DNA from: Gammaproteobacteria bacterium
GTDB taxonomy: Bacteria; Pseudomonadota; Gammaproteobacteria; Steroidobacterales; XN24
Length of the DNA: 64,000 nucleotides
NCBI GenBank assembly: GCA_024640085.1
Contig: JAHEFR010000005.1
Span: 1-64,000 of the forward strand
Direction: 5' to 3'
A program made the position numbers and the translations under genes. Shown in pieces: positions 60,243 through 63,845 of this stretch. The notes under the pieces are model-generated. The model worked only from the letters and a program-made list of their open reading frames with translations, was not told the DNA's origin and did not search any database. How positions within the stretch are numbered: the first letter of the stretch is position 1; the number at the start of each line of letters is the position of its first letter.

Positions 60243-63200
60243 TCACGACGTGAGACGAGCGTACAGATCCCGGGTTTCTTCCGCGGGCTCCACCTCGAGT
60301 TCCGCCGCCAGGACGCGCCGGCAGCGGTTGAACGCCTCGATGGCCTCTGCCTTGCGACCCTGGCGCTCGTAACATTGCATCAGGTGCCTGTATAGCGCCT
60401 CCGCAAGTGGATCGGCCTGCAGCCCCCGTTCGTACAGGTCCGCGGCCCGCATCCACTGGCCCATGCTCTGATAATAGTGCCCCAGCGCGCCGACGGACCT
60501 GAGGAAACGGGTCCGCAGCTGTTCCCGGGTCCCGAGGGCCCATGACCGGTCGTACCGGTCGCCCAGGAACGGGCCCTGATAGAGCAGCAGGATTCGATCC
60601 GCCAGGCCCTTGACCAGCCCCTCGTTCAGCAGATCTTCCTGGTCGGATACCTTGCGCTCGACTTCCGAGCAGGCGTGTTCCAAAGCCAGGGAATCGAGCC
60701 AGACGAATCGTCTATCAAGACTCAGCCGGCCGTCGATCAAGGTGAGGGCCCGGTCCTCGCCAAGGGTCTTGCGCAACCGGTGCAGGGTGGTAGTGAATGA
60801 CTTGTGGGCATAGTCGCTGTCGATGCGGGGCCACAGCGCGTCGGTGATTTTCTCCACCGGCACATTCTGACCGCCGTAGGCCACCAGCACCTGCAGGAGT
60901 TCCAGCGGGCGACTCTGGGATTTGCCCGAAGCGGCGTGAGGCACGTCGTTCCTCAGCACCTGGAACTGTCCGAGGGTGTAGATACGGAACGCCCATGGCC
61001 AGCCTTCGATATTCAGCGGCGGCGTGTCCGGGACCAGGTCGCGCTGCCTGATCAGACTCTTCGCATATTCGGTCTCGATGCCGGCCTCGAGGGCGCGGAC
61101 GCAGAGACGGGCCATGATCGACGGTTGCCACCACAGGAAGTGGGTGTACCCCTTCTCGCGACCGAGGGCCATAGCGTACTGGAGTGCCCTCAACGCGCTC
61201 TGCCTGCGTCCGTACCGCAGGGCGGCGTCCGCGTATGTCATCATCCCGAAAAACTCCAGGAACCGGTTCTTGATGCCGCTGATGCCGTTGCGGATCTCGT
61301 GGAGGTAACGCCCGGCCTTGGCCCGGTCGCCGCACTCCAGCAGGGCCTGGACCATGGCCAGACCGCAGATCAGGTCAAAAGTCGGCACTCCGATTTCCTT
61401 GGCCAGTCGCTGGGAAGATCTCAGCCGATGGAACGCCGTGACCACGTCTTTCTCCAGCATCGCGCACCAGGCCGCGAAATAGTTGAGCAGGCACAGTTCG
61501 TAGCGCCTCGACGATCCCGGGTCGGCCTCCATTGCGGAAAGCAGTTCGTGGGCCGTATCCAGATCGGCATCGGCCAGGGCGCCGGCCACACCATGAACCC
61601 GCATGCCGTTATTCCATATATGGACGCCGCTTTTCGCCGCGATTTCGAGACCGTCGTAAACGGCATTGAGACAGGACTCGCGATCGCCCACGAGCATGTA
61701 ATACATGGACTCGACGTATCTGAGGGTGGTCAGCCCCAGGGGAGTCACAAGCGGCGACCTCGCCAGGAGCCGCATCCCGTCGATGGTCTGCATGGCCTGG
61801 GGGAACTGCCCGGTCCACATCAGCCCCACGGCCGAGATCTGCTCCATCAACAGGCGCAGGTTGGGATCGGACTGGCGCTTGGACACGATCGCGTTGCGCT
61901 CTCCCCAACTCTCGATATCCGGATGAAAGGGCTGCCTGAGCACGAGCGTCATGAACGTGTTGCAGGTGATCCTTGCCTCCACTTCCTCGTTCGGGAACTC
62001 GGGGTAGGCACGCTGGAGCTCGTAGACCTCGTCCACCCAGCGGTCGGACAGGGTAAGGTCGTCGAGGTCATGAAGGATGGCACCGAGGACTCCGGCACAT
62101 GCAGAGTACAGCCCCTCCACGTCTGGCAGATCACCTGCCCGGAACCCGTCATAGGCCCGCTCGAACAGGCGCCTGCTCTCCCTGGGCGCGGTTGACAAAC
62201 GGCACACGCCCAACCAGTACTGCATCCATGGATCGGAGGACGATCGCTCCCGGGGCAGATCGTCCAGCCACTGCTCAAGAGTCTCCGCCCGGCCCTGCTC
62301 CACCAGGTCCCCGGCCCGTTCGCGGATAATCTGTTCGAGCTTGTCCCAGTCGCCTGACTCGACCAGGAGCGTGACCGTGTCTTCCGAACGACCGCTCTTC
62401 TCCAGCAACGCCGCCGCCCGGCTCCGGAGTTCCGAGCGCTGACTGTCTTTGAGGCGGGCACGGCCGTGGCTCAACAGGAAGTCGCGCATCAGCGGGTGAT
62501 ACTGGAACACGACCTCTCCGGCGACCTGGCGGGCGGAGACAAGATAGTAGCTTCGGACGAGTTCGGTGAGGATGCCCGACGCATCGGGATTACCCGACAG
62601 GACCTCGGCGTCCGAGGCTGTCATCTGCGGCAGGAACGCCGTCTGGATCAGTAACTCCTGGACGTCCTGCTCGAATCCCTCGAACATCTCGCCGGCCAGG
62701 TAATCGAAAATAGCCTGGGGAGCATTGCCCACCAGGGGATCCGCCGGGTCCCGGCCCCGGGAGAGTTGCTCCATCATCAGCACGAGGCCGGCGGCCCAGC
62801 CCTGGGTGCGCTCGAACAGAAGTTCGCGAGCCCGGGCATCCAGGTTGGGATAGCGCATCTCGGCCATCGCCTCTGTCTCCTCCCGGGTCAGCCGTAACTC
62901 GTCCCAGCCGACCAGATCCAGCGACTGGCTGGCCCGATAGCGGGCCAGCGTAGGCGACGGGTCGCTGCGGCTGATGAAGATCACCGAGCAGCCGGCCGGT
63001 ACTTCCGCCAGACCGTCGCGGATCACTTCGTGGAACCTGGAGTGGATCGGCACGTCCTGGTAGTTGTCGAAGACGATGGCGAAGGGCGCCTGGAGCCGGG
63101 AAAACAATTCCCGAAAATAGAGGTGGGCGAAGGCGCTCAGGTCCCCTGTGTATTCCGGGGCCAGCCGCGGCATCGGCGTGCCGACGCCGGATACGGCTTC

Positions 63201-63458
63201 GACCGCCATGCCCATGTAATAGAAGAAGGTGGCGACGTCGGCCTCGCCCGGATCCATCTGATACCACAGGCTGGCGATATCCCGCTCCTCGATGTAATTG
63301 GCGGCCAGGGTGGTCTTGCCCGAGCCGGGCGGCCCGGACAGCCAGACCACGGGCTTGCGGGTGGCCTGGTCCAGGCGAGAGAACAATCTCTCCCGCGGCA
63401 GGATCCCTGACAGGCTTGGGCGGGTCGTCTTCGCCAACCCGATCTTTGGGATGGACAT
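60243..63458 (-). CDS. Large MalT-like ATPase regulator with C-terminal SARP (winged helix plus BTAD) module
   Basis: Protein of 1071 residues. The N-terminal STAND-type ATPase has Walker A GPPGSGKT (42-49) and Walker B-like FAIVFDNYQDV, followed by VIFISRSDPSPTLARYR, as in MalT. The middle (about 350-810) is a helical repeat sensor region. The C-terminus is not the LuxR helix-turn-helix of MalT: from about 825 it reads FRIYTLGQFQVLRNDVPH, PLELLQVLVAYGGQNVPVEK and HRLRKTLGEDRALTLIDGRL, an OmpR-like winged helix, then a bacterial transcriptional activation domain (about 925-1071, LYERGLQADPLAEALYRHLM). That is the SARP layout best known from actinobacteria. It probably senses a ligand through the helical region. 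Divergent from a 37-residue membrane peptide gene. Confidence 0.85.
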   Translation of the reverse strand: MSIPKIGLAKTTRPSLSGILPRERLFSRLDQATRKPVVWLSGPPGSGKTTLAANYIEERDIASLWYQMDPGEADVATFFYYMGMAVEAVSGVGTPMPRLAPEYTGDLSAFAHLYFRELFSRLQAPFAIVFDNYQDVPIHSRFHEVIRDGLAEVPAGCSVIFISRSDPSPTLARYRASQSLDLVGWDELRLTREETEAMAEMRYPNLDARARELLFERTQGWAAGLVLMMEQLSRGRDPADPLVGNAPQAIFDYLAGEMFEGFEQDVQELLIQTAFLPQMTASDAEVLSGNPDASGILTELVRSYYLVSARQVAGEVVFQYHPLMRDFLLSHGRARLKDSQRSELRSRAAALLEKSGRSEDTVTLLVESGDWDKLEQIIRERAGDLVEQGRAETLEQWLDDLPRERSSSDPWMQYWLGVCRLSTAPRESRRLFERAYDGFRAGDLPDVEGLYSACAGVLGAILHDLDDLTLSDRWVDEVYELQRAYPEFPNEEVEARITCNTFMTLVLRQPFHPDIESWGERNAIVSKRQSDPNLRLLMEQISAVGLMWTGQFPQAMQTIDGMRLLARSPLVTPLGLTTLRYVESMYYMLVGDRESCLNAVYDGLEIAAKSGVHIWNNGMRVHGVAGALADADLDTAHELLSAMEADPGSSRRYELCLLNYFAAWCAMLEKDVVTAFHRLRSSQRLAKEIGVPTFDLICGLAMVQALLECGDRAKAGRYLHEIRNGISGIKNRFLEFFGMMTYADAALRYGRRQSALRALQYAMALGREKGYTHFLWWQPSIMARLCVRALEAGIETEYAKSLIRQRDLVPDTPPLNIEGWPWAFRIYTLGQFQVLRNDVPHAASGKSQSRPLELLQVLVAYGGQNVPVEKITDALWPRIDSDYAHKSFTTTLHRLRKTLGEDRALTLIDGRLSLDRRFVWLDSLALEHACSEVERKVSDQEDLLNEGLVKGLADRILLLYQGPFLGDRYDRSWALGTREQLRTRFLRSVGALGHYYQSMGQWMRAADLYERGLQADPLAEALYRHLMQCYERQGRKAEAIEAFNRCRRVLAAELEVEPAEETRDLYARLTS

Positions 63459-63536
63459 GTCTCCGCGCTCCTTCTGCGGCTGCCGGTCTTCGGCCGGACG
63501 TCCCGCAAGAGTACTCGCACCCGGCCGGATCCGGCA

Positions 63537-63553
63537 CTTACACGTCGCTTACA
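63537..63553 (-). repeat. Direct repeat TGTAAG-N5-TGTAAG, regulator side
   Basis: Two identical hexamers with start-to-start distance of 11 bases, about 80-95 bases before the regulator ATG. SARP proteins are known to bind direct repeats spaced by one helical turn (11 bp), so this is a candidate self-regulatory site. Confidence 0.5.
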
Positions 63554-63622
63554 GGCAGCTGCCTGGACCCGGCGGAGAAGATGCGCCGGTTTGCTGCGGC
63601 ACCGGTCACCAGCGGATGGATC

Positions 63623-63639
63623 TGTATGCCGGCTGTAAC
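63623..63639 (+). repeat. Direct repeat TGTATG-N5-TGTAAC, micropeptide side
   Basis: Two near-identical hexamers, each preceded by C (CTGTA at 63622-63626 and 63633-63637), with an 11-base period and a possible degenerate third unit CAGTCA at 63644-63649. It is in the opposite orientation to the first site and about 93 bases before the micropeptide start. Confidence 0.45.
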
Positions 63640-63731
63640 CGTTCAGTCAGTCGATCGTGGGCGGCGGTGCCTCAGCATGACAACCTCAGCGGGCCGGATC
63701 GTCCGGACCGCAACCGACGAGGGACCGGAAG

Positions 63732-63845
63732 ATGAGAGGCGAAGAACGACCCTGGGACCTGGAACCTTCGATGATCGCCCTGGGCGCCGTTTACGCCGCG
63801 TCCATCCTGGGCAGCATCGTGATGTTCGCCGTCTTCGGCTTTTGA
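63732..63845 (+). CDS. 37-residue single-helix membrane peptide
   Basis: ATG 63732-63734 to TGA 63843-63845. The N-terminal 13 residues are charged (MRGEERPWDLEPS), and the rest is one hydrophobic helix, MIALGAVYAASILGSI then VMFAVFGF, with small-residue A/G spacing typical of helix packing. GAGG (63718-63721) is a possible ribosome-binding site 10 bases upstream. Codon choice is like its neighbours. No homologue is known to me. Its place opposite the SARP-like regulator, behind a matching repeat site, suggests it is a target gene. Confidence 0.45.
   Translation: MRGEERPWDLEPSMIALGAVYAASILGSIVMFAVFGF

Follow-up and report, generated by a model that had tools for sequence, protein, structure and literature searches.

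Phased TGTAAG direct repeats as putative operators of a SARP-type regulator with a MalT-like NTPase at a gammaproteobacterial micropeptide locus

Results

A regulator gene and a micropeptide gene diverge from paired repeats

The window (the whole 64-kb stretch of DNA that was analysed) carries near its end a large regulator gene and a very short gene for a membrane peptide, which diverge from a 273-bp intergenic region. The features of this locus, including two candidate −10 elements proposed from the sequence, are:

60243..63458, minus strand: gene for a 1071-residue regulator with a MalT-like NTPase, a TPR-like middle and a C-terminal SARP part (OmpR-type winged helix plus BTAD)
60252..60926, minus strand: SARP domain, residues 845–1069 (alignment with AfsR, 8hvr, E = 3e-11)
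62226..63434, minus strand: MalT-like NTPase (STAND-type) region, residues 9–411 (hmmsearch of profile A1 against PDB, 8bob, E = 5e-34)
63508..63513, minus strand: candidate −10 TACTCT of the regulator promoter, lying 7 nt instead of 6 past the degenerate third unit of site A
63521..63531, minus strand: degenerate third unit of site A
63532..63553, minus strand: site A, two clear 11-bp units, TGTAAGCGACG TGTAAGTGCCG, facing the regulator gene
63623..63666, plus strand: site B, four 11-bp units, TGTATGCCGGC TGTAACCGTTC AGTCAGTCGAT CGTGGGCGGCG, two clear and two degenerate, facing the peptide gene
63673..63678, plus strand: candidate −10 CAGCAT, 6 nt past unit 4 of site B, in the conserved register
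63732..63845, plus strand: 37-residue single-span membrane peptide, MRGEERPWDLEPSMIALGAVYAASILGSIVMFAVFGF, with related peptides in some 25 genomes of the order or more and a third-codon-position bias

The regulator gene call (63458–60243, minus strand) was upheld, and the SARP domain read from its translation in the original prediction is present, with matches to Pfam BTAD, NCBIfam AfsR and the AfsR structure 8hvr. In Pfam, BTAD covers residues 934–1069 (5.8e-23) and Trans_reg_C residues 850–903 (7.6e-4, below the cut-off), so that an OmpR-type winged helix is followed directly by BTAD, as in the SARP family; the NCBIfam AfsR match spans residues 823–1069 (1.4e-10). At the other end, the NCBIfam MalT model (NF003420) matches residues 15–411 at 5.6e-45, scoring 154 bits where the cut-off is 537, and a MalT-type NTPase region is likewise indicated by 8bob. 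The query for the PDB matches to MalT 8bob and AfsR 8hvr was a profile of four regulators. The AfsR residues T88 and R92 contact bases (PMC10936776); in the 8hvr alignment these fall on T890 and R894 of the regulator, and AfsR R94 and K95 on R896 and K897. This is the only strong BTAD gene in the source genome (G000).

The SARP domain is not N-terminal, the order being NTPase (9–411) and then SARP (845–1069); because this order is reversed, we class the protein as a SARP-domain variant architecture, not a canonical large SARP. Nor does it end in the LuxR-type HTH of the MalT family, its C-terminus being winged HTH plus BTAD, and a Pfam search found no receiver domain of the OmpR/PhoB response-regulator kind. 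Literature searches returned no description of such a regulator, an absence that is weak evidence.

The repeats in the window

Re-reading of the sequence bore out the coordinates, strands and spacing originally given for both repeat pairs: TGTAAG-N5-TGTAAG at 63553–63537 on the minus strand and TGTATG-N5-TGTAAC at 63623–63639 on the plus strand, each with units 11 nt apart, start to start. TGTA-N7-TGTA occurs in the window only at these two places, and dinucleotide-shuffled versions of the window held a mean of 0.11 copies and never reached two. The genome scan that had been suggested for TGTAW-N6-TGTAW found four copies in 3.19 Mb, two of them the window pairs and the other two lying within multi-unit 11-bp arrays. 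Because the TGTA pattern was picked after the sequence had been seen, a motif-free shuffle control was run on the 273-bp intergenic region; a lag-11 pair of any 4-mer on both strands arose in 16% of shuffles, and in 38% when lags of 10–12 were allowed. Taken alone, the two pairs are weak evidence, since such a pattern arises in 16% of motif-free shuffles, and the weight of the sequence evidence for them comes from other genomes, not from the window itself. Scanning the intergenic region for sigma-70 promoters and terminators gave no result. A perfect 14-bp palindrome, CAGGCAGCTGCCTG, at window positions 63552–63565, abuts site A.

TGTAAG arrays accompany the regulator in relatives

Close regulator homologues in G015 and G028, at about 44% identity, were the starting point for finding the TGTAAG arrays, which in regulator-bearing relatives have three to five units at 11-bp spacing and commonly lie beside the regulator gene; they adjoin it in G015, G235, G087, G093, G190, G234, G346 and G316. 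With a matrix made from the G015 and G028 arrays only, the best array lay less than 500 bp from the regulator at 7 of the 12 loci outside the matrix set (P about 6e-6), namely the window, G087, G093, G234, G346, G316 and G190. The homologues in G212, G392 and G164 had no clear array nearby. Among 396 genomes of the order, the three-unit pattern (up to two mismatches) was found in 20 and the regulator (E ≤ 1e-40) in 23, with six genomes having both (Fisher P = 4e-4); 14 of the 373 genomes lacking a regulator match have a match with up to two mismatches, several of which look like chance. Three genomes (G040, G051 and G060) have arrays and no regulator was found in them, the G040 and G051 assemblies being 79–81% complete.

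Several further arrays were seen in passing. An eight-unit 11-bp array, TGTCAGACCTG/TGTAAGCCCTG, lies in G013:C83 (L089), in a genome with no detected regulator, and two genomes of family f11 without the regulator, G387 and G074 (L098, L099), have near-identical TCTAAAAGGTG TGTAAGCGGTG TGTAAG sites. In G167:C65 (L153/L212), an array and leader resemble those of the G190 regulator, and the reading frame seems to skip from the start to the BTAD part, as in a decayed regulator or an assembly join.

Arrays are in register with the −10

In an alignment of 22 arrays from other genomes, 16 in the register first scanned and six moved by one unit by eye, a −10 of the form NANNNT stands at offset 50, 6 nt past unit 4, in 22/22; at any other offset it appears in 0–1 of 22. 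Direct 11-bp repeats at a fixed distance from the −10 are a SARP-family trait. The afs box of AfsR extends from −40 to −19 and has essential T residues at −38 and −27 (PMC10936776). If the afsS −10 is taken as −12 to −7, the last two array units cover the afs-box positions, with their invariant T (unit position 3) coinciding with T-38/T-27. Within the window, site B fits the common register and site A is off by 1 nt.

Profile R1, built from 18 arrays of which none came from G000, gave an independent view of this genome. It found C32:35034 (E = 2e-4) and C44:149519 (6e-4); a weak match on C17 (0.45) was dropped as it looks intragenic. Matches below 1e-3 occurred in 7/7 genomes with a strong regulator match vs 0/13 without (P = 1e-5), and in those 13 regulator-less relatives no match fell below E = 0.8. 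Within the 64-kb window, R1 ranked sites A and B first and second, at 12.1 and 10.9 bits (site B over model positions 1–53), the next site scoring 6.5; when the two target loci were added and the resulting 99 kb were scanned unfiltered, they came third and fourth after C32 and C44. They score about half as high as C32 and C44, are weaker than the relatives' arrays and are absent from the whole-genome R1 listing, a search with a limited first look.

Predicted targets beyond the divergent pair

The C44 array precedes a BamE-like lipoprotein gene, followed by more small lipoprotein-like genes. This lipoprotein is 55% identical to one in G087 whose gene diverges from the regulator with an array in between, an arrangement also seen in G093 with a divergent lipoprotein gene, and 45% identical to a G167 lipoprotein behind an array. 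The C32 array precedes an 81-residue ORF (L043 8146–8391) that is apparently truncated, has a GDSL block-I-like motif and shows weak similarity to a GDSL/PlaA-like lipase behind an array in G093, where a DUF805 protein is also found behind an array. Elsewhere, arrays precede genes for a distant BamE-like lipoprotein and a PQQ dehydrogenase (G015, G028), an MMPL transporter (G015, G235), outer-membrane barrels (G167, G190, G280), an OmpA-domain protein (G234) and a PLD-like protein (G167, with an apparent counterpart in G190). The predicted targets are thus mostly envelope or lipid proteins, which would be the common theme of the regulon. The 81-residue ORF has a signal-peptide-like start, lies directly after a DUF1329 gene and resembles a truncated lipase.

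The locus had been described as a compact regulatory pair, and that description does not stand. The predicted regulon is wider, G000 itself having the lipoprotein operon and the truncated GDSL gene; in G087 and G093 the regulator faces a lipoprotein operon, not the peptide; and in family f7 the peptide occurs mostly without the regulator, behind a different 11-bp array.

The micropeptide belongs to a conserved family

Compared alone with 29 close relatives, the 37-residue peptide gave chance-level matches only. The family was found because G051 and G040 supplied the query: each has a 33-residue homologue (42 and 36% identity) 32 nt past the −10 of an array. A profile of the three peptides, at E ≤ 0.01, picks up members in 32 of the 396 genomes, mostly in family f7, the weakest few probably being chance. 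The peptide ORFs that were inspected are short, with ribosome-binding-like sequences, an acidic N-terminus and a shared segment, [VI]I.LG..YA..L...I.W[VI]A. Substitutions by codon position number 862/631/1262 of 2227 sites each, favouring the third. The existence of the family and the third-position bias indicate that the micropeptide is real, upholding the original call of this ORF. Neither the window peptide nor four homologues checked matched Pfam or NCBIfam, and the window peptide thus falls outside the small-protein families with curated models.

In family f7, whose genomes mostly lack the regulator and mostly have no TGTAAG array, the peptide lies behind an array of NRTCAG units with 11-bp spacing, and there the peptide may have come under the control of a second regulator. 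The NRTCAGNNNNN array was seen before the f7 peptide at L188, L191–L194, L196 and L197. Extra micropeptide paralogues occur at G051:C105 and C139, the C139 copy without a clean array.

Distant homologues of the regulator

A single-protein scan of genome contigs for the regulator found nothing; an alignment used as query instead gave 15 regulator loci, with homologues in Desulfobacterota and Nitrospirota. At five Desulfobacterota-type loci, TGTRAS-N5-TGTRAS was matched five times, as against 0–1 matches at spacers of 0–4 and 6–15; each pair has TA 11 nt further on (TATAAT in L170), and 3/5 sites are near a regulator end. These loci were reached by the fixed-spacing pattern and not by R1. The cultured Nitrospira moscoviensis NSP M-1 (L172) has a homologue of 34% identity, near which no TGTAAG array was found.

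Discussion

The analysis shows by computation that the arrays exist, that they are phased to the −10 and go with the regulator, that their targets are homologous and that the peptide is coding. In the comparison across relatives, TGTAAG arrays recur next to the regulator, their distance to the −10 is constant, and peptide homologues lie behind two of them. Because relatives share the repeats, the promoter distance, the regulator and the tiny gene, the window repeats look like real docking sites. We consider it probable, with good confidence, that they are operators of the adjacent SARP/MalT-like regulator, which would bind them, activate its own promoter and that of the peptide, and serve a wider envelope/lipid regulon.

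What we infer about binding, activation, the signal and the function of the peptide can be set out as a mechanism. Ligand and ATP would relieve the NTPase/TPR part, allowing SARP protomers to line up along consecutive 11-bp units, four or five at most (consensus TGTAAGNNNNN). With no proper −35 present and the last two units ending 6 nt upstream of the −10, the protomers there would be placed to recruit RNA polymerase, in the manner of AfsR at the afs box. Site B would thereby drive the 37-residue membrane peptide and site A the regulator itself, and unlinked targets would include the BamE-like lipoprotein operon (G000:C44) and the truncated GDSL gene (G000:C32). The proposal that the regulator controls both itself and the peptide is favoured by an operator class that travels with the regulator family and by the two peptide homologues behind arrays; autoregulation through site A is plausible and the weaker half, as this site has two clear units only and its −10 is displaced by 1 nt.

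Direct repeats of about 11 bp are also used by OmpR-family winged helices of the PhoB/PmrA type. The arrays could therefore be sites of another OmpR/PhoB-type response regulator, with the SARP gene merely one of its targets, and the arrays of G040, G051 and G060, genomes in which the regulator was not detected, fit that idea. It is nevertheless unlikely: the regulator and the arrays occur together in several families and adjoin each other, G000 has one strong BTAD gene, related repeats stand beside the distant Desulfobacterota homologues, and the −10 spacing is that of the AfsR afs box (PMC10936776). Co-occurrence, adjacency and the AfsR-like phase together make a different winged-HTH protein the less likely owner of the sites.

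It is more improbable still that the window repeats are chance while arrays elsewhere are real, the regulator here acting on the lipoprotein and GDSL promoters only. The 16% of shuffles with lag-11 pairs on both strands and the halved R1 scores speak for such a view; against it, a model from other genomes places these two sites at the top of the window, their orientation is correct, site B is in register, homologous peptides lie behind the G040 and G051 arrays, and arrays precede or flank regulators in several other genomes. Since the region behind site B is a short transcription unit of its own ahead of a convergent gene, the site might instead drive a small RNA, the 37-residue ORF being untranslated; the conserved peptide family, the ribosome-binding-site-like sequences and the codon-position substitutions make this very improbable.

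SARPs have been known chiefly as activators of antibiotic production in actinobacteria. The operator reading preferred here shares much with the AfsR/SARP family of Streptomyces (PDB 8hvr/8jke/8k60; PMC10936776): an OmpR-type winged helix plus BTAD, 11-bp direct repeats that replace the −35, an essential T at unit position 3, T88/R92 equivalent to T890/R894, and a last unit ending 6 nt before a weak −10, on the above assumption about afsS. It differs in its C-terminal SARP and N-terminal NTPase/TPR parts, in an NTPase nearest to MalT rather than to the AfsR-type NOD, in having three to five units instead of two, in the TGTAAG motif, in mostly envelope targets and in its hosts, which are proteobacterial MAGs, Desulfobacterota and Nitrospirota. 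With MalT of Escherichia coli (PDB 8bob) it shares the N-terminal STAND-type NTPase and the build of a large single-polypeptide sensor-activator, whereas MalT has a LuxR-type HTH end and malT boxes in place of a SARP output and 11-bp direct repeats. Like PhoB/PmrA-type OmpR regulators, it would place a winged helix on 11-bp-spaced direct repeats, but it lacks a receiver domain and has BTAD. The peptide resembles CydX (37 residues) and like micropeptides in being a single-span membrane peptide below 40 residues; unlike them, it has no Pfam or NCBIfam match and no fixed operon partner.

On sequence grounds, the window locus forms one part of a larger predicted SARP regulon that has no earlier description. 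We lean slightly towards the broader view that undescribed one-component regulators with a MalT-type NTPase and an AfsR-type output exist in several proteobacterial lineages, Desulfobacterota and Nitrospirota, and that at least the proteobacterial ones use an 11-bp TGTAAG code in phase with the −10 to control an envelope/lipid regulon that includes a new micropeptide family. SARP promoter logic, down to the phase between last unit and −10, would then operate in distant Gram-negative lineages, where the sensor is exchanged for a MalT-like one and most targets belong to the envelope. What emerges is an operator code that can be read precisely, for a regulator family to which no function has been assigned, together with a regulon that can be tested and a micropeptide family that is new.
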